Assembly: GCF_029626265.1 (NCBI RefSeq)
Contig: NZ_JARUBN010000001.1
Location: 1,922,001 to 1,986,000, forward strand
Direction of reading: 5' to 3'
Source of the DNA: Micromonospora sp. WMMD1102
GTDB taxonomy: Bacteria; Actinomycetota; Actinomycetes; Mycobacteriales; Micromonosporaceae
DNA: 64,000 nt
The position numbers were made by a program, and so were the translations under genes. Within the stretch, counting starts at the first letter, position 1, and each line of letters begins with the position of its first letter. Below, in pieces: positions 6,254 through 26,147 of the stretch. Below the pieces are notes generated by a model. It searched no databases. It saw only the letters and a program-made list of their open reading frames with translations, and had not been told where the DNA came from.

Positions 6254-6463
6254 CCGGTCCCGGAATCCGTCGCGGTCACCGGTGCACGGTGGGCCGCGAC
6301 CGCACCCACCCGCGCCGTGTCGGCCCGCGTGATCCGGGCGGCGCTGCCACCAAAGGCGGTGTGGCCTGCGGAAGCCCCTGTCTGGATGCCGCGTCCCGGT
6401 CGGGGCGTCCCGGACTCTTGTCCTCGTGATCTTCGTGAACTACTTTGGCAACACCTTGGAAAC

Positions 6464-6475
6464 GTAACCGATAAC
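6464..6475. promoter_or_regulatory. LacI-type operator candidate before lacI-family gene
   Basis: GTAACCGATAAC fits the symmetrical pattern GTWAYCGRTWAC with a central CG, the usual layout of LacI-family sites. It sits 22 bp ahead of the repressor ATG inside an AT-richer patch, consistent with autoregulation. This is a pattern match only. Confidence 0.45.
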
Positions 6476-6496
6476 GATTGCAGTCCGAGAGGCGAC

Positions 6497-7519
6497 ATGG
6501 TCGAGGGCAGCGCGCCAATCACCATGAGTGACGTCGCTCGTGCGGCGGGCGTCTCCACCGCCACCGTGTCGAGGGTTGTCAACGGGCAATACGGCGTCAG
6601 TGCCAGCACCACGGCCCAGGTCCGTTCGGCCATCGAGCGGCTCGGCTACGAGTCGAGCCTGGTCGCCAGCAGCCTGCGCCGCAACCGCACCAACGTGCTG
6701 GGCCTGGTGACCCACAGCTTCCAGTCCTACACCGCCGAGGTCCTCAAGGGCGTGATGCGGGCCCTCGGCCGCTCGGGCTTCGACCTGATCGTCTACGCCA
6801 ACAGCGATCTCTACGAGACGTACTCGGAGGGTTGGGAGCAGCGGCACCTGAACCGGCTGTCCGGCACGCTCACCGACGGGTGCATCGTCGTCACCCCCTG
6901 GGGCGAGGTGGCGAGTCGTGCCCCGGTCGTGGTCATCGATCCGGCCAGGGACTCGACGACGCCGTCGGTGACCGCGGACAACCTCTCGGGTGCCATCACG
7001 GCGGTCGAACACCTGTTGCGGCTCGGCCACCGGCGGATCGGGTTCATCGGGGGCCGGTCCAGGCTGGCGGCTGCCTGGTCGCGGGAGGAGGGCTACCGGA
7101 AGGCGCTGGCCGCGGCCGGCGTACCGGTCGACCCGACACTGGTCTGCCGGGGGAGTTTCAACCCCGAGTCCGCGGCTCCGTTGGCGCGGGACCTGCTGGA
7201 ACGAGCCGACCCGCCGACGGCGATCTTCGCGGCCAGCGACGGGATGGCCCTGAAGGTCCTGGAGGTCGCGAGAAAGCTGGGGTTGGAGGTCCCCGGCGAT
7301 CTGTCGGTCGTCGGATTCGACAACATCCCGGAGTCGGCGCTGGCCGAGCCGGCGCTGACCACGGTGGACCAGTCGATGTGCCAGCTCGGATACGAGGCGG
7401 CGCGCATGCTGAAGTCCCTGGTGATCGGTGATTGGGAGGGCCCGCGCCAGATAGTGCTTCCGACCAGTCTCCAGGTCCGCGGTTCCACCGCGGCACCGAA
7501 GAGCATCCCGGATCTGTGA
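6497..7519 (+). CDS. LacI-family transcriptional repressor
   Basis: A 340-residue LacI/GalR regulator. The N-terminal HTH reads TMSDVARAAGVSTATVSRVVNGQYGVS, followed by the hinge helix VASSLRRNRTNVLGLV and a periplasmic-binding-protein-like sensor domain (HRRIGFIGG, AIFAASDGMALKVLEVA, VPGDLSVVGFDNIPES). The open frame extends upstream to 6317, but I chose the ATG at 6497 because GAGAGGCGAC precedes it; 6524 is a possible shorter start. It lies directly upstream of the tandem esterase and the sugar ABC genes on the same strand, so it most likely represses that set and is released by an oligosaccharide or its breakdown product. Confidence 0.9.
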   Translation: MVEGSAPITMSDVARAAGVSTATVSRVVNGQYGVSASTTAQVRSAIERLGYESSLVASSLRRNRTNVLGLVTHSFQSYTAEVLKGVMRALGRSGFDLIVYANSDLYETYSEGWEQRHLNRLSGTLTDGCIVVTPWGEVASRAPVVVIDPARDSTTPSVTADNLSGAITAVEHLLRLGHRRIGFIGGRSRLAAAWSREEGYRKALAAAGVPVDPTLVCRGSFNPESAAPLARDLLERADPPTAIFAASDGMALKVLEVARKLGLEVPGDLSVVGFDNIPESALAEPALTTVDQSMCQLGYEAARMLKSLVIGDWEGPRQIVLPTSLQVRGSTAAPKSIPDL

Positions 7520-7631
7520 AACCAGGCCCAGTGGTGACGAGTTCCGGGCTGACCCGCGCAGTCAGTTCGAACACGAGAGCAGCCAGTCCGAACACCCGAG
7601 CAGTCAGCTCGAACGCGCAACTGAGGTAGCC

Positions 7632-7660
7632 GGAAGGAGGTGAGCCGAAGAGACTTCGGC
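7632..7660 (+). promoter_or_regulatory. Strong Shine-Dalgarno followed by a short hairpin
   Basis: GGAAGGAGGTGA (7632-7643), almost fully complementary to the 16S anti-SD, is followed at once by the perfect hairpin GCCGAAG-AGA-CTTCGGC (7644-7660), and then an ATG at 7662. The linear SD-to-start distance is about 20 nt, too long for normal initiation, but folding of the hairpin would bring it to a few nucleotides. This could make leader translation depend on RNA structure. Confidence 0.4.
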
Positions 7661-7661
7661 G

Positions 7662-7730
7662 ATGTCCACCGATGAGTCGAGCTGCCAACGGCTCGCATCC
7701 GTGCCAACGCACGAAAGGAGTGGAGCGTGA
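7662..7730 (+). CDS. Putative 22-residue leader peptide upstream of esterase
   Basis: This small ORF begins MSTDESSCQRLA and ends THERSGA. Its TGA overlaps the GTG start of the esterase (GTGA), a layout used for translational coupling. It lies just downstream of a strong SD and hairpin. No family is recognised. It may be chance, but the overlap and the SD make a coupled leader plausible. Confidence 0.35.
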   Translation: MSTDESSCQRLASVPTHERSGA

Positions 7731-9910: not shown

Positions 9911-9935
9911 GCAGGGCCCGCTGACGGCGGGGTGA

Positions 9936-9962
9936 CCGGGGCGGGGGAGTTCCCCGCCCCGG
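9936..9962 (+). terminator. Hairpin after the esterase gene
   Basis: A perfect 11-bp GC stem (CCGGGGCGGGG / CCCCGCCCCGG) with a 5-nt loop lies 26 bp after the esterase stop. There is no U-tract, which is usual for terminators in high-GC actinobacteria. Confidence 0.6.
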
Positions 9963-10125
9963 GCAGCGCTCCGCAGCCCGCGGGAGTGTGTCGCGCATCC
10001 GCGCAAGGACGGTCGGACGGCGGACCGGCGGTGGACGTCCCACCCCGGCCGTCGCCGCCCGGCCGTCAGCCCTCAGCGACGGCGCCCGACCCCGGGCGCG
10101 GTGATCCCGAAGGGAAGTCACGTCA

Positions 10126-11469
10126 ATGAAGACGAAACGCATATTCGTCACCGCAGCCGTGCTCGCGGCCGCGAGTGGCCTCGTCGCCTGTTCCTCGGAC
10201 TCCGGCGGCGGCAGTGACGCGAGCAACTGCACGAACACCATCACCAAGAAGGAGCTGCCGGTCGTCACGATGTGGGGCTGGTACCCGAACATGCAGCTCG
10301 TGGTCGACAACTTCAACAAGCAGAGCAGCGAGGTGCAGGTCTGCTGGACCAACGTCGGCCAGGGCAGCGACCAGTACGACAAGTTCCAGACGGCCATCTC
10401 GGCCGGTACCGGGGCACCCGACGTCGTCATGATCGAGATGGACCGGATCCCGACCTTCCAGATCCAGAAGGCGCTCGTCGACATCAAGAAGTACGGCTTC
10501 GACGCCGTCAAGGCGAACTACGGCGAGGGCGCATGGAAGGACGTCTCGATCGGTGACGCGGTCTACGGCGTACCTGTCGACGGCGGTCCGCTCGCGATGA
10601 TCTACCGGAAGGACATCTTCGACAAGTACGGCATCACGCCGCCGAAGACCTGGGCCGAGTACGAGCAGGCGGCGCAGAAGGTGAAGGATGCCGGCGGCCC
10701 GCTCTTCGGCGACTTCGGCGCGAACGTCTCGGCGCTCACCATGGCGCTCCAGATCCAGAAGGGCGCCTCCCCGTTCGCCTACGACTCGGCCCAGCCGACG
10801 ACGATCGGGGTGAAGCTGAACGACCAGGCATCCAAGGACGTGCTCGACTACTGGGGCGGCCTCGTCCGGAAGGGGCTGGTCGGCAAGCAGGACCAGTTCA
10901 CCCCGGAGTACATCGCCGGCGTCATCAACGGGCAGTACGCGACGTACATCTCGGCGGCCTGGGCACCCGGCTATCTCACCGGTGCCGGGGTCGGCAAGGG
11001 CCAGGACACCGGCAAGTTCGCGGTGGCCCCGCTGCCGCAGTGGGACCCGAACAACCCGGTCCAGGTGAACTGGGGCGGTTCGGCCTTCTCGGTGACGAGC
11101 CAGTCCAAGAAGCAGGAGTTGGCGGCGAAGGCCGCGTACGGCCTCTACGCCGACAAGGAGTCGCTCACCGACGGCTGGACCAACCAGATCATCTTCCCGC
11201 TGAACCTGACGGCGCTCGACGACCCCGCGTTCAAGGACCTGAAGGTGGCGTTCTTCAACGGCCAGCAGGCGAACAAGGAGGTGTACGTGCCGGCGGCGAA
11301 CGCCTACAAGGGCATGGTCTACAGCCCCTTCGGCCAGTACTACTTCGACGCGATGACGGAGCAGGTCAGCGAGATCCACAAGGGCTCGATCACCGGCTCC
11401 CAGGCTGCCGACCGGCTCCAGGAGGACGTGGCGAAGTACGCCAAGGAGCAAGGTTTCACCGTTCAGTGA
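10126..11469 (+). CDS. Sugar ABC transporter, substrate-binding lipoprotein
   Basis: A 447-residue extracellular solute-binding protein (family 1). The signal ends in the lipobox LVAC, followed by a Ser/Gly tether, so it is lipid-anchored outside the membrane. Motifs VVTMWGWYPNMQLVVDNFNKQ, SAGTGAPDVVMIEMDRIP and YGVPVDGGPLAMIYRKDIFDKYGI are typical of oligosaccharide binders. The ATG follows GAAGGGAAG. It is followed by a hairpin and then two permease genes. Given the neighbouring esterase and LacI repressor, the ligand is probably a plant-derived oligosaccharide; the exact sugar cannot be told. Confidence 0.93.
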   Translation: MKTKRIFVTAAVLAAASGLVACSSDSGGGSDASNCTNTITKKELPVVTMWGWYPNMQLVVDNFNKQSSEVQVCWTNVGQGSDQYDKFQTAISAGTGAPDVVMIEMDRIPTFQIQKALVDIKKYGFDAVKANYGEGAWKDVSIGDAVYGVPVDGGPLAMIYRKDIFDKYGITPPKTWAEYEQAAQKVKDAGGPLFGDFGANVSALTMALQIQKGASPFAYDSAQPTTIGVKLNDQASKDVLDYWGGLVRKGLVGKQDQFTPEYIAGVINGQYATYISAAWAPGYLTGAGVGKGQDTGKFAVAPLPQWDPNNPVQVNWGGSAFSVTSQSKKQELAAKAAYGLYADKESLTDGWTNQIIFPLNLTALDDPAFKDLKVAFFNGQQANKEVYVPAANAYKGMVYSPFGQYYFDAMTEQVSEIHKGSITGSQAADRLQEDVAKYAKEQGFTVQ

Positions 11470-11475
11470 CCGGCC

Positions 11476-11508
11476 GGGTGGGCCGCGCCGTCCCCGGCCG
11501 GCCCACCC
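11476..11508 (+). terminator. Intercistronic hairpin between binding protein and permease
   Basis: A perfect 10-bp stem (GGGTGGGCCG / CGGCCCACCC) with a 13-nt loop fills the gap after the binding-protein stop. Such stems often protect the upstream message or partly terminate transcription, giving more binding protein than permease. Confidence 0.5.
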
Positions 11509-11541
11509 CCGACCCGCAGCGTCCACGTCCCGGAGCCCAAG

Positions 11542-12483
11542 ATGACCCTCCTGACCGAAGAGCGCGCACCGCGCGCCGAAGAGAAGACGCCGAAGATCCG
11601 CGGCAAGGCACACCTCCGTGAGCACCTGATGGGGTGGTTCTTCGTCGGGCCGTTCGCAATCGTCTTCCTCGCGTTCCTCATCGCGCCGCTGGGGTACGCG
11701 CTCTATCTCAGCCTGTTCCAGAAGAAGCTGATCGGCGGCACCAGCTTCGTCTTCCTCGACAACTACGTGAAGGCGTTCACCGACCCGAGCTTCCTCTCCG
11801 GCTCGTGGTTCGTGCTCCGCTTCTCGCTGGTCTCCATCCCGCTGCAGATCGCCGTCGCGCTGGCGATGGCCCTGATCCTGGACGCGGTGACGACCCGGTT
11901 CGCCCGCTTCTCCCGCCTGATGATCTTCCTTCCGTACGCGATCCCGACGGTGATCGGTGCGGTGATGTGGGGCTTCCTCTACAGCAGGAGCTTCGGGCCG
12001 CTCACCGACGTCTTCGGGCTGTTCGGCGCGACCGCGCCCGACTTCCTGAGCGGTAACCTGATCTTCTACGGCCTCCTCAACATCGTCACCTGGCAGTGGG
12101 CCGGCTATTACATGATCATTCTGTACGCGGCATTGCAGGGCATCGACCCGACGCTCTACGAGGCCGCCCGGATGGACGGCGCCGGACGGTGGCAGGTCGC
12201 GGTCCGGATCAAGATCCCGCTCATCGCTCCGGCGCTGATCCTGATCCTGGTCTTCTCGCTCATCGGCACCCTCCAGTTCTTCAACGAACCGCAGATCCTC
12301 CGCTATCTCGCCGCCGGGACGATCGGAGCGGACTTCACCCCCAACATGTACGCGTACCAGCAGGCCTTCTCGCTGGCCAACTTCAACTACGGGTCGGCGA
12401 TCTCCTTCGCGCTCGGCGGGCTGGTCTTCGTCTGCGTGTACGCCTTCCTGTTCTTCACCCGCAAGCGGAGGAGCTTCCTCTGA
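11542..12483 (+). CDS. Sugar ABC transporter permease (MalF type)
   Basis: A 313-residue membrane protein with six predicted helices. After a charged N-terminus, GWFFVGPFAIVFLAFLIAPLGYALYLSL is the first helix. The EAA loop that contacts the ATPase reads YEAARMDGAGRWQVAVRIKIPLI. It pairs with the next gene, whose start overlaps this stop (TGATG). No ATP-binding gene is nearby, so a shared MsiK-type ATPase elsewhere in the genome probably powers uptake, as known for many actinobacterial sugar transporters. Confidence 0.93.
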   Translation: MTLLTEERAPRAEEKTPKIRGKAHLREHLMGWFFVGPFAIVFLAFLIAPLGYALYLSLFQKKLIGGTSFVFLDNYVKAFTDPSFLSGSWFVLRFSLVSIPLQIAVALAMALILDAVTTRFARFSRLMIFLPYAIPTVIGAVMWGFLYSRSFGPLTDVFGLFGATAPDFLSGNLIFYGLLNIVTWQWAGYYMIILYAALQGIDPTLYEAARMDGAGRWQVAVRIKIPLIAPALILILVFSLIGTLQFFNEPQILRYLAAGTIGADFTPNMYAYQQAFSLANFNYGSAISFALGGLVFVCVYAFLFFTRKRRSFL

Positions 12484-13914: not shown

Positions 13915-16053
13915 ATGGTCCACACCGGGCCTAGTCGCCAGCGCCTGACACGACTCGCCCTCGCCGGGATGACCGCGCTCGCGGTAGTCCTCGGCGGCCA
14001 GACTCCCGGGTTCGCCCGACCGACGACCACGCCAGCCCAGCCGCCCTCCGTTCCCGGCTTCGGCGAGGTCGCGAGCCCGAAGCCGGCCCGCCCCGGCCCG
14101 CTGCCCAGGAAGTCCGGCACGGTCCGGAACGACCCGTCCAAGGCGGCCGCCCAAAGCCGCGGTATCGGCGTCCAGGGGCTCAACGACCAGGTCGCGCTCC
14201 GCGCGCTGATCGTGGCGACCAACACCGCCGACTTCGGCGTACCCACCCTCACCACCACCCTCGACCGGCTCGGTGCCTCCTACGACGTCCTCTACTCCGC
14301 CACCGACCCGCTCTCGCCGAGCACGCTGGTCCGGCCCGACGGGGTCGGCAACTACAACGCGATCCTGCTCACCAACAGCATGCTGCTGTACGAGTCGGGC
14401 GGCAGCTACCTGAGCGGGCTGACCAGCACCGAGTGGAACACCCTCTGGGCGTACGAGCGCAACTTCGGGGTCCGGCAGGCGTCCCTGTACACCAGCTACG
14501 GGACCTGGCCCGAGGACCACTGCCTCACCGGCGTCAGCGAGGGCGGGGTCGGCGACACACCCCTGCCGGCCTCGCTGACCACCAGCGGCGCCGCGGTCTT
14601 CGACTACCTCGACAGCGCCGCCCAGATCCCCCTGACCCAGTCGTACGTCTACCGCACCGCCATCCGGCCCGGCTGCGCCGCCCAGGCCCTGATGACGAAC
14701 GGTTCCGACGTGCTCGGCGTGCTCACCACCTCGACCGACGGCCGGGAGCGGATCGCGCTGACGTTCACCTCGAACCAGTTCCTGCTCCACTCCGACCTGC
14801 TGGTCTACGGCCTGGTCCGGTGGGCGACCAAGGGGCTGTACTTCGGCGAGCAGAAGCACCACCTGAACGTCGACGTCGACGACTGGTTCAACACCTCCGA
14901 CCACTACCTGGAGAACGGGACCGTCGAGTACACCCCCGGATTCCAGGTCACCGGACACGACACGGTCAACCTCGACGCGCAGCAGACCGCGCTGCGCACC
15001 GCGCACCCGCTGGCGGCCGGGTTCACCTTCAACATCGCGTACAACGGCGCCGACATCGACCCGTTCGCCGGCAGCACGTGCAGCCCCAACGGCGACGCCA
15101 GCACGCTGACCGCCACCACCAAGTGCCTCAAGGGCAACTTCCGGTGGATCAACCACACGTTGAACCACCCCGAACTGAACGCGACGAACTACGCCACCTC
15201 GTACGCCGAGATCAACGACAACCGGACCGCGGGCAACGCGATCGGGCTCAACGCACCGGACAGCGTGCTGAAGACTCCCGAATACTCCGGCCTCGGCGTC
15301 TACAACGACGACCCGGAGAACGACACCGGCCCGCCGACCGACCACGGGCTCGAAGGGTCCAACCCGGCGCTGCTACAGGCCGCGGAGGATCTCGGCGTCA
15401 CCACCGTGGTGGGCAACATGTCGTTCACCAGCCACAAGCCGGCGAACTTCAACGCCGGCATCGTGCACCCGCTGGAGCCGAGCATCCTGATGGTGCCGGC
15501 CTGGCCGACGGACATCGCCTACCACACCACCACCCCGGCCGAGCAGACGGTCTTCTACAACTCCTTCTACGGCCCGAACGGACACTTCCCGTACTGGCCC
15601 TCCGACCGCACCTACGCCCAGCTCCTGGACTACGAGGCCGGGATGGCGCTCCAGCACGTGGCGTCCGGCTCGATCTACGCGCACACGTTCCACATCGCCA
15701 ACGTGCGCGACTACGGGGCCGGGGACACCCTGCTCACCGACTGGGTCGACGCGGTACTGACCAAGTACGACTCCTACTACTCGGTGCCCCTGCTGAACTC
15801 GTCGTGGGTGGACATCGCCGCCTACGGCCGGGCGCGGACGGCGCACTTCGCCGCGCTCGACGCCGGGGCCGGCGCGGTCTACGACCGGAGCACCGGCACC
15901 ATCACGGTGACCTCGCCGGCCGCCGGCACGGTCCAACTGGGCGGGGTGACCGCGGCCACCGCGGGCGCCACCAGCTATGGCACCGACGTCACCGTCCCGG
16001 TGACCCTCACGGCCAACACCGCCGTGACGTTCAACGCCGCCCCCCGCCCCTGA
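13915..16053 (+). CDS. Secreted Agd3-like (CE18) polysaccharide deacetylase
   Basis: A 712-residue secreted protein. The ATG at 13915 has GGAGG upstream and begins a signal peptide (MVHTGPSRQRLTRLALAG, then a hydrophobic core). Residues ~95-310 resemble the N-terminal Rossmann-like and CBM87-type region of Agd3, the fungal galactosaminogalactan deacetylase. Residues ~315-650 form the NodB-like barrel: HHLNVDVDDWFN supplies Asp322/Asp323 and WINHTLNHPEL supplies the metal-binding His414 and His418. It probably de-N-acetylates an amino-sugar exopolysaccharide outside the cell, making it cationic and adherent. It is the first gene of the nine-gene operon with PelF-like and GH114-like genes. A generic polysaccharide deacetylase is the fallback call. 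Confidence 0.8.
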   Translation: MVHTGPSRQRLTRLALAGMTALAVVLGGQTPGFARPTTTPAQPPSVPGFGEVASPKPARPGPLPRKSGTVRNDPSKAAAQSRGIGVQGLNDQVALRALIVATNTADFGVPTLTTTLDRLGASYDVLYSATDPLSPSTLVRPDGVGNYNAILLTNSMLLYESGGSYLSGLTSTEWNTLWAYERNFGVRQASLYTSYGTWPEDHCLTGVSEGGVGDTPLPASLTTSGAAVFDYLDSAAQIPLTQSYVYRTAIRPGCAAQALMTNGSDVLGVLTTSTDGRERIALTFTSNQFLLHSDLLVYGLVRWATKGLYFGEQKHHLNVDVDDWFNTSDHYLENGTVEYTPGFQVTGHDTVNLDAQQTALRTAHPLAAGFTFNIAYNGADIDPFAGSTCSPNGDASTLTATTKCLKGNFRWINHTLNHPELNATNYATSYAEINDNRTAGNAIGLNAPDSVLKTPEYSGLGVYNDDPENDTGPPTDHGLEGSNPALLQAAEDLGVTTVVGNMSFTSHKPANFNAGIVHPLEPSILMVPAWPTDIAYHTTTPAEQTVFYNSFYGPNGHFPYWPSDRTYAQLLDYEAGMALQHVASGSIYAHTFHIANVRDYGAGDTLLTDWVDAVLTKYDSYYSVPLLNSSWVDIAAYGRARTAHFAALDAGAGAVYDRSTGTITVTSPAAGTVQLGGVTAATAGATSYGTDVTVPVTLTANTAVTFNAAPRP

Positions 16054-16101
16054 CAACGGAGCGGGAAATCCGGTGACGCGCAACTCCAACGGGAGCACTC
16101 G

Positions 16102-17826
16102 GTGAGGATCGCACTGGTCTCGGAAGGCACGTACCCGTACGCCATGGGCGGCGTGAGCGTCTGGTGCGAGCAGCTCATCCGGGGCATGCCGGACCACCGC
16201 TGGGAGGTCGTGGCACTCACCGTGGACGGGACCGAGCAGCCGGTGTTCGACCGGCCGGCGAACCTGGACCGGGTGCACTCGATACCGCTGTGGGGCGGAC
16301 GGCCGCCGGGCCGCCGCCCCCAGCGGGGGTTGCCGGTCCGGGCCGGCCGGCCCGGCGTCGGGTTCATCGAGTCCTACGAGGTGTTCCTGCGTGCGCTCGT
16401 CACCCCGCTGGAGTCGACCCGCTCCCAGGCGGGCGCGGTCAACCGGAGCACCTTCCTGCTCGCCCTGCGCGGCATGTTCGAGTACGCCGCCGACGGCGGC
16501 GACCTGAGCGCGGGCCTGCTCTCCAACCAGGCCCTGGGGATGATGCTGGACGCCTGGCGTTCCCTCCGGGTCGACGAGGCCGAACCCGCGCTCACCGTCG
16601 CCGACGCCCTGGAGGCGGCCTGGCTCATCTCGCACATGATGCGGCCGCTGAGCGCGCCGCCGGTCCGGGCCGACATCGTGCACTCGTCGATGAACGGCCT
16701 CGCGATGCTCGTCGGAATGGCCTCGACCTGGGCACACGGAACCCCGCTGGTCCTCTCCGAACACGGCATCTACCTGCGCGAACGCTACATCTCGTACCTG
16801 AACGACAAGGCGCCGCACCCGGTCCGGGTACTGGTGCTGAGCTTCTTCCGGTCGCTGGCCGGCGCGGCCTACCTGATCAGCCACGCGCTGGCGCCGCACT
16901 CGCAGTACAACCGGCGCTGGCAGTTGCACAACGGGGCCGACCCCGAGCGGATGTGGACGATGTACAACGGCGTCGACCCGGACGAGTTCCCGCCGGCGGC
17001 CAGCGAACCGGAGACGCCGACCATCTCGTTCATGGGCCGCATCGACCCGCTGAAGGACCTGCACACCCTGATCCGGGCGTTCGCGCTGGTCCGCGCGGAG
17101 ATCCCGAACGCCCGGCTGCGCGTCTTCGGCGGTACGCCGGCCGCCAACCAGGTCTACCACGCCAGCTGCCAGGCACTGATCGACGAACTCGGGCTGACCG
17201 GGCAGGCCACCCTGGAGGGGCGGGTCGGCAGCGCGGTCGAGGCGTACCACGCCGGCAACCTGGTCGCGCTGACGAGCATCTCCGAGGGCTTCCCGTACAC
17301 GGTGGTGGAGGCGATGGCGTGCGGGCGCCCGACCGTGTGCACGAACGTCGGTGGCGTCGCCGAGGCGGTCGGCGACACCGGAATCGTCGTCGCGCCCCGG
17401 GACGTGCCCGCCGTCGCCGCCGCCTGCGTGAAGCTGCTGCGGGACCGGGAACTGCGGCTGCGGCTCGGTGCCGTCGCCCGGGCCCGGGTCCTGGAGCGGT
17501 TCACGCTGCGGCGCTCGCTCCAGGCGTACCGCGACATCTACCAGGGGCTCGTCGCGCGACCGACGGTGTCGGTGCCGCAGATCCAGCCGCGCGGCCAGGC
17601 GCAGGGCCGGGTCAGGGTGCCGGACCACAAGATCCAGCCCGGGGTGGCCGCCGTCAACACCCGGATACCCCGGCAGCGCGACCCGGAGGAGTACGCCCGG
17701 TCCAACGCGGCGCAGGTGCCGCGTCGTGAACCGAACCCGTCCGGCTGGCTGCGGCGGGCGGCGCCGGCCGGCCCGGCCGACGGACCGACGGACGAGACTC
17801 CGCGACTCGTCGGCGAGCCGCGATGA
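16102..17826 (+). CDS. pelF-like: PelF-like GT4 glycosyltransferase
   Basis: A 574-residue cytoplasmic GT4-fold enzyme. The start [20 protein letters not shown] is the glycine-rich opening seen in PelF, and the middle region [10 protein letters not shown] ... [19 protein letters not shown] matches the DUF3492/PelF pattern. The C-terminal donor-binding half shows [18 protein letters not shown] and [21 protein letters not shown] with the EX7E-type glutamates. PelF polymerises UDP-GalNAc-type donors into the Pel exopolysaccharide. A basic, Pro-rich tail from about residue 490 is extra. The GTG start has GGGAG six bases upstream, and the stop overlaps the next ATG (ATGA), implying coupled translation with the membrane partner. 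Confidence 0.82.
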
Positions 17827-19373
17827 CCCCCGGCGACCGCAGCGTGCCGCCCTCCCCGGACGACGACGCCGAGCCGGCACGGCAGCGCGGCGGCACGGTG
17901 ACCGCCGAGGCGGCACCGGAGCAGGATGCCGACCAGCCGGGCGAGACCGAACGCACGATCCTGCTGCCGAGGATCTCCACCGACCCGGTCGACGACCTGG
18001 TCGAACGGGTCCGGCCCCGGCTGGGCCGGGCGGTGGACGCGTTGCAGGTCGCCGCCGCGCTGGAGGCCGACGGGCACACAGACCGGACGGCGCAGGTCGA
18101 GTACGGCTACTCGGACGTCTTCCGGCTCGCCTCCGAGGTGTTCTGGCGGATGGGGCCGCCGTCACCGGTCGACGACCAGGCAGGCCCCTCGGAGGCGACC
18201 GGCACGCACCGGTGGGACGGCCTGCGCACGATCGCACACGGGCCGCTCTACCTGCTGCCGGGCGCGGCGTTCCCGGCCGTGCTGGCGGTCGTCGGGCGGC
18301 CGGGTCTGGTACTCGGACTGGTCATGGCCGGAACGCTCGGCTGGGTCTACTCGGGCGTGGCCGCGTACTCGGCGTACCGGCTGCTCGGCCTGCGCCGGCC
18401 GGGCTCGGCGAGCCGGGTACTCCGGATGGCGGCGCTGACCGGTCCACTGCTCGGCGTACTCCTCGGCGCGGTGATGTTGCCGCACCACGGCCTGCCGCTG
18501 GCCGTGATGATGGTCTGCCAGCTCGCGTACCAGATGGCCAGTACGCTGCTGGTCTTCTACCGGCGCGAGTCGTGGCTGGCCGTGGCGATGCTGCCCGCCC
18601 TGCTGTCCGGCGTGGCCTACCTGGTCGTCGGCGGCCCGGCCCTGCGCCGGTCGGCGGTGACGGTGGCGGCGGTCTGCGTACTGGCGACGCTCGCCGCCGC
18701 CCTGTGGGCCGCCCGGCCCGCCGCCGGTGCCGAGGAACCGGCGCCCCGGCACCCGCTGTGGCCGGAGGCGTCCATGCTGCTCGGCGTCGCCGGCTACGGG
18801 CTCTGCTCGGCCGGGCTGCTCTTCCACGCACAGGCGCCGTACCTGGACCGGTTGGACGTCGTGGTGGGTGCCGTACCGCTGTTCCTCTCGATGGGATTCG
18901 TGGAGTGGCGGACCAGCCGGTTCCCGGCGGCGGCGATCGCGGCGACCCGGCGGGCGCGCCGGCCGGACGAGTTCGTCGCCGAGGTCTGGCGCACGGTCGG
19001 CCGGGACGTCGCGGCCTGCCTCGCGGTGCCGGCGGTGCTCGGGGCGGCACTGCTGGCCGGCCTCGCCCACGCGAAGATGCTGTCGGCGGCCGGCACGGTG
19101 ATGACGGTCGCGCACGTCGCGCTCGCCGGCGCCTACTACCTGGCGTTCCTGCTGACCGGCCGGGGGCGGTACGGCTGGCTGTGCCTGTCCATCGCGCTCG
19201 TGGTGGCCCTGCACGTCGGGGTCGGAGCGCTGCTCGGTGCCGCTCCGCTGCTCGGCCAGCACGGCTCCGTGTTCGTCGACACCTCGCTCTACCTGGGCAG
19301 CATCGTGCTGCTCCAGGCGCTGTTCGCGCTCGGTCTGCTTCCGGTGATCGGGCAGGTCCGGCACTACCGGTAG
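17823..19373 (+). CDS. pelG-like: PelG-like polytopic membrane protein
   Basis: A 516-residue protein with a ~125-residue charged cytoplasmic N-terminus and then about 11-12 membrane helices (from [22 protein letters not shown] to [17 protein letters not shown]). The order after a PelF-like gene with a 4-bp overlap, the length, and segments such as [25 protein letters not shown] and [20 protein letters not shown] resemble PelG, the inner-membrane Pel export component that partners PelF. Pairwise similarity cannot be measured here, so the name rests on context and general pattern. The extended N-terminus is longer than usual for PelG and may contact the synthase. Confidence 0.65.
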
Positions 19374-19399
19374 TTCACTCGGCCTATGGGGAGGTCAGG

Positions 19400-20248
19400 T
19401 TGCATGCGGTGATTCTCGCAGGCGGCAAGGGAGTGCGGTTGCGGCCGTATACGACGACGCTACCCAAACCCCTGATGCCGATCGGCGACAGCCACTCGAT
19501 CCTGCAGATCGTGCTCGACCAGCTCGCGTCGCGCGGGTTCACCTCGGTGACCCTGGCGATCAACTATCTCGGCCCGTTGATCCAGGCGTTCGTCGGGGAC
19601 GGCCGCCGGTGGGGGCTGGACATCGACTACGTGGAGGAGGACCGTCCGCTCTCCACGGTCGGCCCGCTCTTCGCGTTGAAGGACCGGCTGCCCGACGAGT
19701 TCCTGGTGATGAACGGAGACATCCTCACCGACCTGGACTACGCCGACCTGCTGCACACCCACCGGGTCTCCGGCGCCGGGCTGACGCTGGCGACCTCCGA
19801 GCGGGTGCACCAGATCGACTTCGGCGTGCTGGACGTGGACGCCGGCCGGATCGTCGGGTTCCGGGAGAAGCCGGCACTGCGCTACCCGGTCAGCATGGGC
19901 GTGTACGGGATGTCGCGGAAGACGCTCGGGCCGTACCCGCCGGGACTTCCGCTCGGCTTCGACCAGTTGGTGCTGGACCTGCTCGCGGCCGGCGAGCACC
20001 CGGCGACGTACCCGTTCGACGGCTTCTGGCTGGACATCGGCCGGCCGGAGGACTACGACGAGGCGAACCTGACGTTCGCACAGCTCAAGCCACTGTTGCT
20101 GCCGGGCCGTCCGGAACCCGGTCCGGCGGTGCCCGGGTCGGCCGTGCCGGCGCCGGTCGGGTCGGGGTCGGCCGTGCCGGCGCCCGTCGTGCCGGGGCCG
20201 GCCGTCGGCGAGCGGGTCGAGGCCGTGCGCTCGGGGGAGCGCGGGTGA
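19400..20248 (+). CDS. Sugar-1-phosphate nucleotidyltransferase
   Basis: A 282-residue nucleotidyltransferase that makes NDP-sugars. The signature [28 protein letters not shown] and the metal-binding [12 protein letters not shown] are clear. The C-terminus (residues ~240-282) is a repetitive Pro/Val/Gly tail ([18 protein letters not shown]). I chose the TTG at 19400 because GGGGAGG lies six bases upstream and the family fold starts at that residue; the frame is open far upstream but antisense-like. It probably supplies the donor for the exopolysaccharide. The base and sugar (UDP, GDP or dTDP) cannot be decided. Its stop overlaps the next start (GTGA). Confidence 0.85.
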
Positions 20249-21141
20249 CCCGGGTACTCCTCTTTGGGGCGTCCGGCTTCATCGGCCGGCACACCCGTGC
20301 CGCGCTGGAGTCGGACCCGAGGATCACCGAGGTGATCTGTCCGGACCGGACGACCTACGACCTGCTCGACGGCGCACCGGAGCTGCTGGTGGGGAAGCTG
20401 CGCGAGGTCGCCCCGGACGCGGTGGTCAACTGTGTCGGCGCGCTCACCGGTTCCGCCAACCAGCTGCTCAGGGCGAATACGCTTGTCGCGGTGAAGCTGC
20501 TCGAAGCCGTCGGCACGGCGGCGCCGCGGGCCCGGCTGGTCCGGCTGGGCTCGGCCGGCGAGTACGGCGTCGTGCCGTCCGGTGTTTCGGTCAGCGAGAC
20601 CGATCCGGCGCACCCGGTCAGCGAGTACGGCGTCAGCCACCTGGCCGGGACCCGGCTGTTCCAGCTCGCCGGCGAATCCGGGCAGGCCGACGCGGTGTCG
20701 GTGCGGGTCTTCAACCCGATCGGCCCCGGCATGTCGGAGGAGAACCTGCTGGGCCGGGCCGCCGCCCGGATCCGCGCCGCGCTGGCCGGCGGTGCACCCG
20801 AGATCACCCTGGGGCCGCTCTCCGCGTACCGGGACTTCGTCGACGTGCGGGACCTCGCCGCGCTGATCGTCGCCCTGGTGCTCGCGCCCGAGCTGCGGCA
20901 CCGGGTCTTCAACGCGGGCAGCGGCCGGTCGGTCACCGCTCGGGAGGCGGTCGAGCTGCTGGCCGCCACGGCCGGCTACCACGGCCGGATCCGGGAGGCC
21001 GGTGCCGGGCCGCCGCGCTCGACGGCGGTCGGCTGGATCAGGGCCGACGTCAGCCGGGCGGGTCGCGAACTGGGCTGGTCGCCGGTGCGCGACCTGGCGA
21101 CGTCGGTCAAGGACGTCTGGGCCGCCGGGGAGGCGAGGTGA
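20245..21141 (+). CDS. NAD-dependent epimerase/dehydratase with altered active site
   Basis: A 298-residue extended SDR. The NAD-binding motif is [14 protein letters not shown], followed by [10 protein letters not shown], an S/SAGEYG segment, and [10 protein letters not shown]. The usual catalytic YxxxK reads Y128-G-V-S-H132, so the conserved Lys is His. That would alter or remove redox chemistry on the sugar. It may be a reductase or epimerase variant in the NDP-sugar branch of the exopolysaccharide pathway. It overlaps both neighbours by 4 bp. Confidence 0.8.
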
Positions 21142-22319
21142 GCCACCGGAACCCGGGCGGCCGGCCGGGCGAGGCGGCGCACGCCGGCACCGGCCGGCGC
21201 CGGTGGCTCGGCACCGGGCGGCGACGGCTCGTGGCCGGCCGGCGGCGGTGGCTCGGCACGGGCCGGCGGCGATGGCTGGTGGCCGGCCTCGCCGGGGTGA
21301 CGGTGCTGGCGGTGGCCGCCGGCTGGGCGCTGGTCACCGGCCGGTCCGGTCCCACACCGACGTCGGCGCCGGCAGACGCCACCGGCACGACGCCGGGGCC
21401 GGGCGGTGACCGCCCCGCGCCGAGCGGCACCGCCAGCCCCACGCCGCGGCCGGACCGACCGGCCACCAGCACACCCGGCGCCGCCCCGGCCAGGCCGCCC
21501 GCACCCCGGACGATCAAGAACTGGGCGTACCAACTCCAGGGGTACTCCGGCGGCGGTCTCGACGCGCTGACCCGGGGCCGGTACCAGCTCGCCGTCGTCG
21601 ACCTGGCCCGGGACGCACACACCGGCTACTTCAGCCGGGCCGAGATCGGCGCGCTGCGGCGCAGCGGCAAGCGGGTGCTGGCGTACTTCGAGATCGGCAG
21701 CATCGAGGACTTTCGTCCGGAGTACCCGGTGCTCCGGCGCGACGCCCCCGACCTGTTGGCCAACGAGTGGCCGGACTGGCCCGGCGAGTACTTCGTGCAC
21801 TACTGGGACGGCCGCTGGTGGGAGCGGGTGGTGCGGCCCCGGGTGGACCGGGCGCTGCGGGCCGGCTTCGACGGGGTCTACCTGGACACGCCGCTGGCGT
21901 ACGAGGAGATCGCCCTCGACGCCGCCGGGGGCCGGGACCGGGCGCGGCTCGCCGTCGAGATGGCCGCCCTGGTCGTCCGGATCAGTGCGTACGCCAAGGC
22001 CCGCCGGCCCGGCTTCCTGATCGTCCCGCAGAACTCCCCGGAACTGCGCAGGCAGTCGGGTTACACCGCCGCCATCGACGGCATCGCGATGGAGGAACTC
22101 TTTTATCTCGCCATGGACGAGCCGTGCACCCGGGACTGGTGCGCGGAGAACCTGGCACACACCCGGGCGCTGCGGGACGCGGGCAAGTTCGTGCTCGCCG
22201 TCGACTACGCCGTACGGGCCGACCACGTGCGGGCGGCCTGCGACCGCTATCGCGCGGAACGGTTCGCCGGCACGGTCACCGTCCGGGAACTCGACCGGCT
22301 CACCGCGCCCTGCGGCTGA
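21138..22319 (+). CDS. GH114-like endo-alpha-1,4-polygalactosaminidase, membrane-anchored
   Basis: A 393-residue protein. The N-terminus has Arg/Trp-rich repeats (RRRWLGTGRRR twice) and one hydrophobic helix (LVAGLAGVTVLAVAAGWALV), probably a signal anchor, then a Thr/Pro linker to about residue 120. The rest is a TIM-barrel glycosidase: WAYQLQGYSG, VVDLARDA, VLAYFEIGSIEDFRPEY, GFDGVYLDTPLAYEE and LIVPQNSPEL are GH114/TM1410-type motifs, with Glu and Asp candidates in YFEIG and VYLD. GH114 enzymes cut alpha-1,4-linked galactosamine polymers such as fungal galactosaminogalactan. In this operon it would trim or release the polymer made by the PelF-like synthase. Confidence 0.8.
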   Translation: MSHRNPGGRPGEAAHAGTGRRRWLGTGRRRLVAGRRRWLGTGRRRWLVAGLAGVTVLAVAAGWALVTGRSGPTPTSAPADATGTTPGPGGDRPAPSGTASPTPRPDRPATSTPGAAPARPPAPRTIKNWAYQLQGYSGGGLDALTRGRYQLAVVDLARDAHTGYFSRAEIGALRRSGKRVLAYFEIGSIEDFRPEYPVLRRDAPDLLANEWPDWPGEYFVHYWDGRWWERVVRPRVDRALRAGFDGVYLDTPLAYEEIALDAAGGRDRARLAVEMAALVVRISAYAKARRPGFLIVPQNSPELRRQSGYTAAIDGIAMEELFYLAMDEPCTRDWCAENLAHTRALRDAGKFVLAVDYAVRADHVRAACDRYRAERFAGTVTVRELDRLTAPCG

Positions 22320-22438
22320 GTCGTACCCCCTTCGGCGCGGTCGCACCGTCGCGACGGCGAGCACCAGGCATCGGGCGGTCCGCCCAGCGGACCCTCCGCC
22401 CTCCGGACAGGACATCCGTGGCACGGAAAGGAAACAGC

Positions 22439-23848
22439 ATGGGCTGCAAAGTCGGGGTCGTGGGGATGGGCTACGTGGGGCTCACACTTAGCGCGGCGCT
22501 CGCCGACAAGGGCTTCACGGTGTACGGCGCGGACGTGTCGCCGACGGTTCTGGCGTCGCTGTCCCGTGGTCGGCCGCACATCTTCGAGCCCGGCGTCGAG
22601 GAGATCTTCGCCGCCCGGATCGGCCGCGACATCCAGGTGGGCGCCGAACTGCCCCGGGACACCGTCGACGTGGCGGTGATCAGCGTGTCGACGCCGGTCG
22701 ACGACATCACCCGCCGGCCGAACCTGGCGAACCTGGCCGCCGCCGCCCGGGCGGTCGCCGCCACCTGCCGCCCGGACACCCTGGTCGTGGTCCGCAGCAC
22801 CGTGCCGGTCGGCGCCAGCCGCCGGGTGGTACTGCCCGAGCTACGGGCCGCCTGGGGCGGCCGGGTACGGCTGGTGATGGCGCCGGAACGGACCATCCAG
22901 GGCCAGGCGCTGCGCGAACTGGTCGAGCTGCCCCAGGTGGTCGGCGGGCTGGACGCCGAGAGCCTGGCCGCCGGGGTCGAGTTCTTCACCGGGCTGGCCC
23001 AGACCATCGTGCCGGTCAGCGGGCTGGAGACCGCCGAGTTGGTGAAGCTCTCCAACAACTGCCACACCGACCTGATCTACTCCTTCGGCAACGAGATCGC
23101 GCTGATCGCCGAGCGGCACGGCCTCGACCCGCTGGAGGTGATCAGGGCGGCGAACGTCGACTATCCGCGGCCGGACCTCGCCAAGCCCGGGTACGTCGGC
23201 GGCGGCTGCCTCTCCAAGGACCCGTACATCATGGTCGACAGCGCCGGGGACCGGCGGCCGTTCCTGGTCGGCAAGGCCCGGGAACTCAACGAGTACCTGC
23301 CGATCCACGTGGGGGAGACCGTGGTCCGGATGCTCGCCGAGGCGCGCGGCGGCAGTCTGGGCAGCCGCCTGGCGGTGCTCGGCTGGGCGTACAAGGGCTG
23401 GCCGCCCACCGACGATATGCGGGGCACCCCGATCGCCACCATGATGCGGGTCTTCTCCGCCGCCGGGGTCATCGTGCTCGGGCACGACCCGATGGTCACC
23501 GACGACGTGATCCGGCAGTACGGCGGCGAGCCGATCAGCCTGGACAAGGCGTTCACCGACGTCGACGGCGTACTGATCATCAACGACCACCCGGACTACC
23601 GGGCGATCCGGATCTCGGAGGTACTCGACACGGTCCGACCGGCCTTCGTCTACGACTCGTGGCGGGTGCTGGACGCCGACGCGGTGACCGGTGCCGGCAT
23701 CCGCTACGCGGGCCTCGGCTACCTGCCGCCGGCCCCCGAACCGGGCGCCGCGTCACCGGCCCCCGCCAACTCGTCGCCAGCCCCCGCCAACTCGTCGCCC
23801 GCTTCCGCCGGGTCGCCCGCTTCCGCCGGAGGGGTGGTGCCGGCATGA
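22439..23848 (+). CDS. UDP-sugar 6-dehydrogenase (nucleotide-sugar dehydrogenase)
   Basis: A 469-residue oxidoreductase converting an NDP-hexose or NDP-HexNAc to the uronic acid with two NAD. Motifs in order: KVGVVGMGYVGLTLSAALA (Rossmann), HIFEPGVEE, APERTIQGQAL, the catalytic GYVGGGCLSKDP with Cys257, and the C-terminal Rossmann VLGWAYKGWPPTDDMRGTP. The ATG at 22439 is chosen because GGAAAGGA precedes it. A 35-residue tail of Ala/Pro/Ser repeats (SPAPANS) is added. A 119-bp gap separates it from the previous gene and it overlaps the next by 4 bp. Its presence suggests the polymer, or a side residue, contains a uronic acid, which classical Pel and GAG lack. Confidence 0.88.
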   Translation: MGCKVGVVGMGYVGLTLSAALADKGFTVYGADVSPTVLASLSRGRPHIFEPGVEEIFAARIGRDIQVGAELPRDTVDVAVISVSTPVDDITRRPNLANLAAAARAVAATCRPDTLVVVRSTVPVGASRRVVLPELRAAWGGRVRLVMAPERTIQGQALRELVELPQVVGGLDAESLAAGVEFFTGLAQTIVPVSGLETAELVKLSNNCHTDLIYSFGNEIALIAERHGLDPLEVIRAANVDYPRPDLAKPGYVGGGCLSKDPYIMVDSAGDRRPFLVGKARELNEYLPIHVGETVVRMLAEARGGSLGSRLAVLGWAYKGWPPTDDMRGTPIATMMRVFSAAGVIVLGHDPMVTDDVIRQYGGEPISLDKAFTDVDGVLIINDHPDYRAIRISEVLDTVRPAFVYDSWRVLDADAVTGAGIRYAGLGYLPPAPEPGAASPAPANSSPAPANSSPASAGSPASAGGVVPA

Positions 23849-24813
23849 GGGCGCTGCTGCTCGGCGGGGCCGGTTTCATCGGCCTGCATCTCGCCCGCCG
23901 GCTGGTGGACGACGGCCACCAGGTGACGATCGTGGACGACTTCTCGCGCGGCCGCGACGACGCCGACCTCGACCGGCTCCGGAGCGACCCGGCGGTGCGG
24001 GTGGTCTCCGGAGACCTGACCGCACCGTCGACCTGGGCCGCCCTGCCGTCGGGTTGGGACCAGGTCTACCTGCTTGCAGCCGTCGTCGGCGTCCGCAACG
24101 TGCAGCAGGACCCGGCCCGGGTGGTCCGGGTCAACACCCTCGCCGCACTGCACCTGCTCGACTGGGTCAGCCCCGGCGAGCGGGTCTTCTTCGCCTCCAC
24201 CAGCGAGGTCTACGCCGGCGGCGTGACGGCCGGGGTGGTCCCGGTGCCGACGCCCGAGACCGTGCCGACCATGATCTCCGACATCACCGAGCCCCGGTTC
24301 GCGTACGCGGTCAGCAAGCTGCTCGGCGAGGCCGCCCTCCTGCACACGGCCCGCGCCCGGGGCTTCGAGACGGTGGTCGGCCGCTTCCACAACGTGTACG
24401 GGCCGCGGATGGGTGCCGACCACGTCATCCCGGAGATGTCCCTGCGCGCCATCAGCGGAGTCGACCCGTTCCGGGTGCCCGGTGCCGACCAGTTCCGGGC
24501 GTTCTGCCACGTCGACGACGCGGTCGAGGCCATGCTGCGGCTGATGGCCACCCCGGCCGCCACCGGGCAGATCGTGCACATCGGCAACGACCGCGAGGAG
24601 ACGAACATCGGCGACCTGGCCAAGCTGGTCCTGCGGGTGGCCGGGGCGAGCCCCGCCATCGAGGCGGAGGCGGCGCCGCCAGGTTCGGTCGCCCGCCGCT
24701 GCCCGGACCTGTCCCGGCTGCGCGAACTGACCGGCTACGAACCCACCGTCAGCCTGGAGGAGGGCGTACGCGGCACGTTCTCCTGGTACCGCGAGCACGG
24801 GTGGCCGCGATGA
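23845..24813 (+). CDS. NAD-dependent sugar epimerase (GalE/Uge-like SDR)
   Basis: A 322-residue extended SDR with an intact site: MRALLLGGAGFIGLHLARRL binds NAD, FFASTSEVYAG gives the Ser/Thr, and YAVSK supplies Tyr and Lys. RFHNVYGPRMGADHVIPEM is the substrate-binding region typical of UDP-glucose/UDP-GlcNAc 4-epimerases and UDP-glucuronate decarboxylases. It likely provides UDP-GalNAc or a related donor, like Uge3 in the fungal pathway. The start overlaps the dehydrogenase stop and the stop overlaps the next ATG. Confidence 0.87.
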   Translation: MRALLLGGAGFIGLHLARRLVDDGHQVTIVDDFSRGRDDADLDRLRSDPAVRVVSGDLTAPSTWAALPSGWDQVYLLAAVVGVRNVQQDPARVVRVNTLAALHLLDWVSPGERVFFASTSEVYAGGVTAGVVPVPTPETVPTMISDITEPRFAYAVSKLLGEAALLHTARARGFETVVGRFHNVYGPRMGADHVIPEMSLRAISGVDPFRVPGADQFRAFCHVDDAVEAMLRLMATPAATGQIVHIGNDREETNIGDLAKLVLRVAGASPAIEAEAAPPGSVARRCPDLSRLRELTGYEPTVSLEEGVRGTFSWYREHGWPR

Positions 24814-25505
24814 GCCGCCGGCCGATCTGCTTCTACTACGGTGACGGGCGGCTGGACGAGCTCACCGGATATCTGCGGGTGGTGCTCCAGCCGGACTTCT
24901 ACCAGCCCGCCGAGCTGCGCTACCTGGCGGAGCGGAACGTCCAGACCCTCGGCTACCTGTCGTTGTCGGAGGACCAGGGTCCACCCGCCCCCTGGCAGCG
25001 CCGGGAACGCAACCCGGACTGGGGTGGCGCGTTCGTGCACGTCGACCACCCGCTCTGGGTGGCGCACGTGGTCGGGGCGGCGAAGGAGGCGATCGCCCGC
25101 GGCTTCGCCGGGCTCTTCCTGGACACCCTCAACGTCGAGCTGACCTTTCCCGAGGACGTGCCGCACCTGCTCACCCTGGTCGCGGCGGTACGCGAGGAGG
25201 CGAACCCCGCGTACCTGCTGGCCAACCGGGGCTTCGGCATGCTGCCCCGGCTGGCCGAGATCGTCGACGGGATCGTCTTCGAGTCGTTCTCGGCCCGGTG
25301 GACCGAGGACGGCTACTACGCCCCGTGGCCGCCCGACGTGCTGGAGTTCCACGCCCAGATCGCCGAGCAGCTGCTGCAACTGGAACTGGACCTCTACAGT
25401 CTCGACTACGCCGACAGCCCGGGACTGGCCGACTTCGCCGAACGCCGGGCCCGCCAGTTCGGCCTGCAGTCCTTCGTCGCCGACCGTGCCCTGTCCCGCA
25501 CCTGA
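24810..25505 (+). CDS. Second GH114/PelA-hydrolase-like protein, no export signal
   Basis: A 231-residue TIM-barrel glycosidase-like protein. Landmarks are PICFYYGDGRLDELTGY, TLGYLSLSEDQGP, GFAGLFLDTLNVEL, AYLLANRGFGMLPRLAEIVDGIVFESFSARW. These follow the GH114 and Pel hydrolase layout, with an acidic residue in LFLD and in VFES. Unlike the first GH114 gene there is no signal peptide or anchor, so it is predicted to be cytoplasmic. It could remove mis-sited polymer inside the cell or act on lipid- or nucleotide-linked intermediates. It ends the operon, with a hairpin just after. Confidence 0.72.
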   Translation: MSRRPICFYYGDGRLDELTGYLRVVLQPDFYQPAELRYLAERNVQTLGYLSLSEDQGPPAPWQRRERNPDWGGAFVHVDHPLWVAHVVGAAKEAIARGFAGLFLDTLNVELTFPEDVPHLLTLVAAVREEANPAYLLANRGFGMLPRLAEIVDGIVFESFSARWTEDGYYAPWPPDVLEFHAQIAEQLLQLELDLYSLDYADSPGLADFAERRARQFGLQSFVADRALSRT

Positions 25506-25640: not shown

Positions 25641-26147
25641 TCAGCCGGTCGACATCGAGGTCAGGTTGCAGGTGCGGATCCAGGGGCCGGGGGCGACCGG
25701 CTGGCGGGCACAGGACCAGGTCGAGCTGACCGTCGAGGTGCCCGGGGTCAGGCTGTGGTACGACCCCTGCCAGGTCCCCTCCGGGAAGAAGACGTACCCG
25801 TAGTACTCGCTCCAGCTCTGGTAGCAGCGCACGTCCAGCGCGATGGTGGTCGCGCTGGCGGGGATCGCCTTGGTCCACAGCCTGGTCGAGGAGGCGGGAT
25901 TGAACGGGGAGACGGTGTCCACCGGAAGCCATCCGGAGCCGGGTGAGCCGGGCCAACCTCCGGCGCCCAGGCTCACGTACGGCCCGACCGGGGGGACCCC
26001 GGACGTGCTGCAGGTCGTACTCCCGCTGATGATCCGGGTAGCGTCGGCCGCGGCCGGCGGCGGCGCGACGGATAGCGCCGCCACCGTGGTCGTCGCCAGC
26101 AGGCCGAGGGTGGCCGTGATTCGCCGCAGTCTTCCAGTAGCCGTCAA
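25641..26147 (-). CDS. Small secreted protein of unknown function
   Basis: A 168-residue protein with a clear signal peptide (arginine-rich start, LGLLATTTVAALSVA core, cleavage near AAADA). The mature part has Cys residues at RIISGSTTCST, LDVRCYQSW, SSTWSCARQ and RTCNLTSM, an even number that could form two disulfides, plus aromatic-rich strands (YYGYVFFPEGTWQGSYHSL). I do not recognise a family. The start appears to be TTG at 26147 with AAAGGAC upstream. It is divergent from the NB-ARC regulator 207 bp away, which might control it. Confidence 0.7.
   Translation of the reverse strand: MTATGRLRRITATLGLLATTTVAALSVAPPPAAADATRIISGSTTCSTSGVPPVGPYVSLGAGGWPGSPGSGWLPVDTVSPFNPASSTRLWTKAIPASATTIALDVRCYQSWSEYYGYVFFPEGTWQGSYHSLTPGTSTVSSTWSCARQPVAPGPWIRTCNLTSMSTG

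Follow-up and report, generated by a model that had tools for sequence, protein, structure and literature searches.

A probable Pel/galactosaminogalactan-type operon in Micromonospora with an apparently cytosolic hydrolase

We analyzed a 64,000-nucleotide stretch of the genome of Micromonospora sp. WMMD1102 (hereafter the window; contig NZ_JARUBN010000001.1, positions 1,922,001 to 1,986,000) and describe here an operon of nine genes, g1 to g9, that occupies window positions 13915-25505 on the forward strand. The operon probably directs synthesis of a Pel/galactosaminogalactan (GAG)-type exopolysaccharide rich in N-acetylgalactosamine (GalNAc), which would be handled on both sides of the membrane. 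What seems to be new is a conserved, apparently cytosolic hydrolase, encoded by g9.

A conserved nine-gene unit

The features of the operon are as follows:

13915..16053, +, g1: secreted CBM87-CE18 (Agd3-like) polysaccharide deacetylase (Pfam; hydrophobic N-terminal leader in the translation)
16102..17826, +, g2: PelF-type GT4 polymerase (DUF3492 and NCBIfam PelF)
17823..19373, +, g3: multi-span membrane protein, putative PelG-like translocator, adjoining the PelF gene
17979..18161, +, N-terminal domain of g3 (residues 53-113), common to PelG-type partners of PelF
19370..20248, +, g4: sugar-1-phosphate nucleotidylyltransferase (NTP_transferase, 115 bits)
20245..21141, +, g5: NAD-dependent epimerase/reductase of the short-chain dehydrogenase/reductase (SDR) type (Epimerase, 120 bits)
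21138..22319, +, g6: predicted N-terminally anchored GH191-type galactosaminidase (sequence comparison; anchor in the translation)
22439..23848, +, g7: nucleoside diphosphate (NDP)-sugar 6-dehydrogenase (TIGR03026, 281.8 bits against a cut-off of 189.8)
23845..24813, +, g8: SDR nearest to UDP-glucuronate decarboxylases (UXS1 comparison, TSE(V/A)Y)
24810..25505, +, g9: predicted leaderless GH166 (PelA hydrolase-like) enzyme

A first-pass annotation of this DNA had described nine same-strand genes that mostly overlap by 4 bp. This is the case at six of the eight junctions (g2/g3, g3/g4, g4/g5, g5/g6, g7/g8 and g8/g9); the other two are gaps of 48 bp (g1/g2) and 119 bp (g6/g7). The ATG at 13915 was preferred as the start of g1 over a longer frame beginning with GTG at 13765 because GGAGG is located just upstream of it.

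The identification of g1 as an Agd3/CE18-like deacetylase and of g2 as a PelF-like polymerase, also proposed earlier, is borne out. In Pfam, g1 scores 43.2 bits for CBM87_Agd3 and 35.6 bits for Agd3_CE (cut-off 27.6 for both) and g2 scores 154.4 bits for DUF3492 (cut-off 23.3); g2 also reaches 165.8 bits for the NCBIfam PelF equivalog, above its cut-off of 100. PF11997 (PelF) matches once in the 8.9 Mb genome, at g2. The first CE18 motif has the form DxDDWF in 48 of 73 CE18-type rows and other xxDDxF/L forms in the remainder; the second, NHTxxH, is present in 67 of the 67 rows where it is displayed. A Pfam scan of the nine operon proteins, to which the search was confined, identified no PelD-type receptor, in line with the first-pass annotation, and no Spherulin4 match.

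Synteny in other Micromonosporaceae was examined via a PelF scan that used one genome per named species and six 8-residue peptide patterns; this sampling, which was not exhaustive, yielded 56 loci. CE18, PelF and g3 (g3 identity at least 34%) occur together in 44 of them. Within these 44 loci, g4 and g5 were found in 43, g7, g8 and g9 in 40 and g6 in 35, counts that are affected by contig ends that cut L008, L012 and L036. Gene order is constant wherever the genes were found, the sole exception being a stray g8-type match (28%) in L036. The flanking genes, u1 and u2 upstream and d1 downstream, have no match at 1e-5 in any of the 56 loci. Thus, we consider g1-g9 to be the conserved unit.

The operon is confirmed as a real, non-chance unit whose gene order is preserved in other members of the Micromonosporaceae and in Streptosporangiaceae. 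Hosts include Micromonospora, Catenuloplanes, Actinoplanes and genera split from it, Asanoa, Virgisporangium, Nonomuraea, Spongiactinospora and one Dermatophilaceae metagenome-assembled genome. The distribution is widespread yet patchy. Matches to g9 above 350 bits occur in 34 of 200 Micromonosporaceae genomes (own genome counted), CBM87 matches in 5 of 61 relatives (4 above the cut-off), and PF11997 matches in 50 of 393 genomes of the class.

Predicted hydrolases inside and outside the cell

Both g6 and g9 had been labeled GH114-like in the first-pass annotation. For g9, fold and profile comparison led us to reject this assignment, including a GH114 with shifted specificity. The nearest family is GH166 of PelA, and the GH166 fold and its Asp/Glu pair are present. 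In the alignment, D105 and E158 of g9 (hand-counted) correspond to D160 and E218 of PelA; E218 is given in PMC7112168 and PMC9894940 and D160 in PMC12054363, which however prints Glu223. Many other TIM barrels (GH168, GH66, PgaB and others) appear from rank 10 on in the VIA-align comparison of g9. These are taken as fold background.

No leader is apparent on g9. In 36 of 41 loci, the g9 start codon closest to where one would be expected falls -6 to 0 bases from the stop of g8; in the other five it is displaced (L023, +86; L034, +81), fused (L031) or in a locus without g8 (L046 and L053). An FYYG motif is found in 117 of 120 listed homologues and is at most 16 residues from the start in 114 of the 117. 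Regular expressions detected the D-motif in 117 and the E-motif in 107 of the 120, with the misses not aligned one by one. In L031, g8 and g9 form a single open frame of 557 amino acids (aa). Among the 40 proteins retrieved from the database with the L031 junction region, there are 30 SDR (g8)-g9 fusions of 544-563 aa; regular expressions matched all motifs in 25 of these. All 30 fusions start with a bare Rossmann glycine motif. Given that the fusion proteins begin with a bare Rossmann fold, g9 is expected in the cytosol, and hydrolase and polymerase appear to share one side of the membrane.

For g6, the GH114 label is too coarse. The broad Glyco_hydro_114 model of Pfam matches at 120 bits, but g6 scores 265.6 bits against Env-GH191 (9ep5), 114 against TM1410 and 33 against Ega3 GH114, and is thus predicted to be a GH191 relative. 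A hydrophobic anchor is encoded close to its N terminus. Docking indicated that the Env-GH191 crevice better fits a galactosamine oligomer, and no activity was found for a T. maritima relative of Env-GH191 (PMC12054363).

The arrangement of hydrolases was compared across 105 tabulated PelF loci, 68 of which have CE18 on the same strand (near-duplicates included; L014 and L094 look like one genome). L051 and L086 (one genome) were scored as CE18-less with CE18 on the opposite strand, and L073 is without a CE18 call. The leaderless slot in the 68 CE18 loci is occupied by g9 in 42 and by a spherulin-4 (GH135) protein in 21; no locus has both and five have neither. An exported-type GH191/GH114 is encoded in 51. 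Leaderless GH135 proteins from other operons with CE18, PelF and a membrane protein match Pfam at 93-125 bits (seven examples scanned), and GH114 proteins with a lipobox or leader in those operons match at 271-291 bits (three scanned). The leaderless and the exported protein of L079 match Sph3 (49.7 bits) and Ega3 (189.5 bits), respectively. In the loci with contexts displayed, GH135 in the g9 slot starts at the domain itself. A quickly built PelF tree (100 rows after removal of identical and short PelF pieces; several long branches unsure) groups the Micromonosporaceae and Streptosporangiaceae loci that have g9 in one 46-row branch (42 with g9, 4 with none), apart from L053 of the Deinococcales.

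We read residues of the FLDQ and TFEG motifs as the GH135 catalytic pair, Asp196 and Glu222 in Sph3 (PMC12054363). Both residues are kept in 21 of 21 CE18-positive loci with GH135. A second class of PelF operon lacks CE18 and exported GH114 calls and retains the GH135 protein. In this class the Glu is lost in 21 of 21 (replaced by Ser, Arg, Gln, Ala or Cys), and in 9 of the 21 the Asp is lost as well. The loci are:

L085, L087, L088, L090, L097-L099, L101-L103, L105-L112, L114-L116: CE18-less, GH135 Glu lost

Twenty-two rows of the CE18-less class form one branch of the PelF tree, from which L099 and L106 were dropped (short PelF pieces). No GH135 call was made in L100, L104 and L113 of this class. 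Six further CE18-less rows keep both residues: two each in L051 and L086, and one each in L054 and L073. The hosts of the class are probably Streptomyces-like. The Glu-less GH135 is probably a pseudoenzyme, perhaps a polymer-binding subunit.

Donor-sugar genes and the membrane partner of PelF

Donor synthesis had been attributed to a nucleotidyltransferase, two epimerases and a UDP-sugar dehydrogenase. The nucleotidyltransferase (g4), the dehydrogenase (g7) and one Epimerase-family SDR (g5) stand, whereas g8 is nearer to decarboxylases than to epimerases. The nearest solved chains are mannose-1-phosphate guanylyltransferase beta for g4 (105.6 bits) and GDP-6-deoxy-D-mannose reductase for g5 (76.8 bits). 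A GGGCLSKD motif is present in 40 of 42 g7 orthologues, and g7 ranks closest to a predicted UDP-N-acetylmannosamine (UDP-ManNAc) dehydrogenase (4r16, 160 bits), followed by Cap5O (147), CalS8 (141) and UDP-glucose dehydrogenase (130). Human UXS1 scores 125.1 bits against g8, compared with 98.4 for the best UDP-glucose 4-epimerase. TSEVY or TSEAY occurs in 42 of 42 window-type g8 rows, and no NCBIfam equivalog cut-off was reached by g8. It could still be a 4-epimerase.

The PelF locus of Nonomuraea dietziae (L046) has g1, g2, g3 and g9 only; its g4-g5-g6-g7-g8 genes are together (L117) on the same contig, about 5 Mb away. Micromonospora okii has a second g4-g5-g7-g8 block (L118, 6107-10186) without PelF and near weak GT4-type matches. 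These separations lead us to distinguish a core (g1, g2, g3 and g9) from g4, g5, g7 and g8 (with g6), which may constitute a portable donor-sugar module. Beside the PelF operon of L080, a g4-like nucleotidyltransferase and a g5-like SDR share one frame of 581 aa (2805-4550, reverse strand).

The first-pass annotation held that the dehydrogenase implies a uronic acid, formed via g7 and incorporated into a mixed amino-sugar/uronic acid polymer. This does not follow: because g4-g8 are separable and g8 is nearest to UDP-glucuronate decarboxylases, g7 is a poor guide to whether the polymer contains uronic acid. A mixed polymer is consistent with the genuine NDP-sugar 6-dehydrogenase character of g7 and its likeness to a predicted UDP-ManNAc dehydrogenase, and the donor module is linked to the hydrolase through the g8-g9 fusions. 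However, decarboxylases would convert the uronate to a pentose, and the donor genes stand far from the core in N. dietziae and without PelF in M. okii. Further, among the contexts displayed, g7 is matched only in the window-type loci L081 and L094, although several others have g4- and g5-like genes. We consider a uronic acid-containing polymer unlikely.

The earlier description of g3 as PelG-like holds in part. No Pfam or NCBIfam match was obtained for g3, and its identification as a plain PelG by Pfam was rejected, as the PelG model PF16933 does not match. Its best database match is a Plantactinospora sp. WMMB782 protein (95%), and by a crude hydropathy count the window-type orthologues of L081 and L094 have 9 and 10 spans. 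Comparison of single sequences with the g3 alignment using hhalign gave mixed probabilities (L051, 99.9%; L058, 91%; L053, 73%; L059, 53%; L055 and L057, 26%; L054, L056 and L060, near 0). Thus, the N-terminal domain and the membrane part were compared separately.

A hidden Markov model (HMM) of g3 residues 53-113 has 104 matches among 11,609 open reading frames, one per locus in 104 loci. All are on the PelF strand and at most 2.5 kb downstream of PelF; 8 of 112 PelF loci are without a match, and four of these are short pieces. Among the matches (E 1.7e-8) is the Pfam-recognized PelG protein of L056, itself a 46-bit match to Pfam PelG. The membrane part of g3 matches the PelG group, which includes L056, with a probability of 42% (E 2.6e-4) and a Clostridiales/Blastocatellia group with a probability of 1.5%, whereas these two groups match one another at 100%. 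By position and N-terminal domain, g3 is a probable PelG counterpart, whereas the membrane part bears a weak likeness to PelG.

The domain motif A..LE..G.tD..A...G..DvF.LA marks the membrane protein directly 3' of PelF in the window and in L051 and L053-L060. The domain ranges from Actinobacteria to Bacillota, Acidobacteriota and Bathyarchaeota, and has no Pfam name in the proteins scanned.

That g3 is unrecognized as PelG, and that g4 and g5 have GDP-sugar enzymes as their closest relatives of solved structure, would be compatible with a different glycan, such as a cell-wall polymer or glycolipid made with borrowed PelF-like enzymes. The deacetylase and both hydrolases come from families that act on alpha-1,4-linked GalN(Ac) polymers, however, and all 104 g3-domain matches are directly downstream of PelF. 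We regard another glycan class as improbable.

Proposed pathway and relation to known systems

The families, the gene order, the lack of a leader on g9 and the g8-g9 fusions are read from sequence; we infer the substrate, the linkage, transport by g3 and the role of g9. In the Pel/GAG-type pathway that we favor, PelF (g2) would polymerize UDP-N-acetylhexosamine in the cytosol and g3 would move the chain across the membrane. Outside, the secreted CE18 enzyme (g1) would strip part of the acetyl groups, leaving the polymer cationic and adhesive. The membrane would separate two endo-hydrolases that differ in specificity: in the cytosol, leaderless g9 (GH166) would act on the still-acetylated chain; outside, anchored g6 (GH191) would act on the deacetylated one. 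Most likely, g9 would trim or clear chains that failed to be exported, or set chain length.

GH135 is reported to act specifically on acetylated polymer and GH114 on deacetylated polymer (PMC11356417), and the PelA hydrolase cuts acetylated Pel more readily (PMC12022489). Judged by these relatives, the inside and outside families match those specificities in both operon types, which suggests cleavage of acetylated chains within the cell and of deacetylated chains beyond the membrane. This match is the strongest support for the proposed pathway.

Export of g9 by a non-classical route, with function outside the cell like Pseudomonas PelA, would fit with the periplasmic location or signal sequence of PelA-type hydrolases (PMC9894940, PMC7112168) and with an alternative upstream start in L053 that adds a hydrophobic stretch. 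It is very unlikely given the 30 fusions to a cytosolic-type SDR, the lack of a leader in 114 of 117 homologues, and the GH135 proteins of the same slot, which also begin at the domain. There is little chance that g9 is instead catabolic, degrading imported galactosamine oligosaccharides for food with an incidental position in the operon: genes for a LacI-type regulator, a putative esterase, and the solute-binding protein and permease of an ABC importer do lie upstream (6317-12483), but the importer genes tested (u1 and u2) are not beside the operon in other loci, and the minimal N. dietziae cluster retains g9 with CE18, PelF and g3. The finding that u1 and u2 do not accompany the operon in relatives also led us to reject the upstream importer as part of the system. 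Just 3' of g9 (25641-26147, reverse strand) is a frame of 168 aa with an apparent secretion leader by eye and no Pfam match.

Several points weigh against the two-sided pathway, in addition to the poor resemblance of the g3 membrane part to PelG. The operon is patchy, with g9 above 350 bits in none of six congeners. Five of the 68 CE18 loci lack a leaderless hydrolase; L008, L012 and L036 end early, but L048 and L071 do not. An exported GH191/GH114 is missing from the examined piece in 17 of the 68, with pieces not always long enough; the exported-type protein of L082 has no visible leader, and L080 has none that is convincing. Our leader test, a hydropathy rule of our own rather than SignalP and applied to start codons picked by position, flagged g9 of L053 as well as GH135 rows of L054, L076, L080, L082 and L096. 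The flagged GH135 stretch arises via an upstream start in L054 and is at or inside the domain start in the other four. Finally, hydrolase loss raises adherent biomass in P. aeruginosa and B. cereus (PMC9894940, PMC7112168), and adherence persisted in N. crassa lacking its GH135 (PMC11356417). Given these phenotypes, the inside enzyme need not be essential.

A broader proposal, which we offer tentatively and consider doubtful, is that a cytosolic GalNAc endo-hydrolase is a permanent companion of PelF on which actinobacterial Pel/GAG-type synthesis relies. GH166 and GH135 would be swapped in this role, sometimes fused to a donor-sugar enzyme, and a catalytically dead polymer-binding protein would take the place in deacetylase-less operons. 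It is unsettled why exopolysaccharide operons encode an enzyme that breaks down the polymer they make. In PMC9894940, the physiological role of these hydrolases was called unclear, and the PelA hydrolase was then tied to low-molecular-weight secreted Pel. The mechanism of GAG loss upon sph3 disruption "remains unclear" (PMC7329490). A standing cytosolic partner, if real, would bear on why Aspergillus GAG synthesis needs sph3 even though Sph3 cuts GAG. As the hydrolase appears to be on the polymerase side of the membrane, the question could be tested in soil actinomycetes.

The central combination of the first-pass annotation is not new. Actinobacterial agd3 operons with genes for a cytoplasmic glycosyltransferase, a multi-span membrane protein, GH114 and sometimes spherulin-4 were reported in 2020 (Bamford et al., 2020; PMC7229062), and the operon in the window resembles them in combining a three-domain CE18 deacetylase with such a glycosyltransferase, membrane protein and glycoside hydrolase genes. 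Section 13 of that paper covers GH114 and spherulin-4 only, with no inside/outside split, GH166, GH191 or donor module. Titles and abstract openings, the scope of our literature search (supplements, figures and most subscription journals fell outside it), do not describe the leaderless, the GH135 or the GH166 aspect. The view that actinobacterial operons of this kind use fungal-type GH114 throughout is corrected here.

Pel operons have been noted in Actinobacteria (PMC7112194). The operon shares with those of P. aeruginosa (pelABCDEFG) and B. cereus (pelDEADAFG; PMC7112168) a PelF, a GH166-type hydrolase, a deacetylase and a membrane partner with the PelG-type domain. It differs in that CE18 replaces the PelA-type deacetylase, the hydrolase is leaderless rather than secreted, PelD is lacking from the operon, and there are no outer-membrane parts. 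Whereas P. aeruginosa PelA combines hydrolase and deacetylase in one protein, here GH166 (g9) and the CE18 deacetylase are separate. Unlike the GH166 domain of PelA, g9 is a single domain without a signal peptide, sometimes fused to an SDR.

Like the fungal GAG cluster (uge3, sph3, gtb3, ega3 and agd3; PMC7329490, PMC11356417), the operon encodes CE18, a polymerase, two hydrolases of differing acetylation preference and an epimerase-type gene. The hydrolases are GH166 and GH191 here and GH135 and GH114 in fungi, although relatives such as L079 do have GH135 and GH114. Descriptions of Sph3 place a transmembrane domain close to its N terminus, whereas its bacterial counterparts are leaderless.

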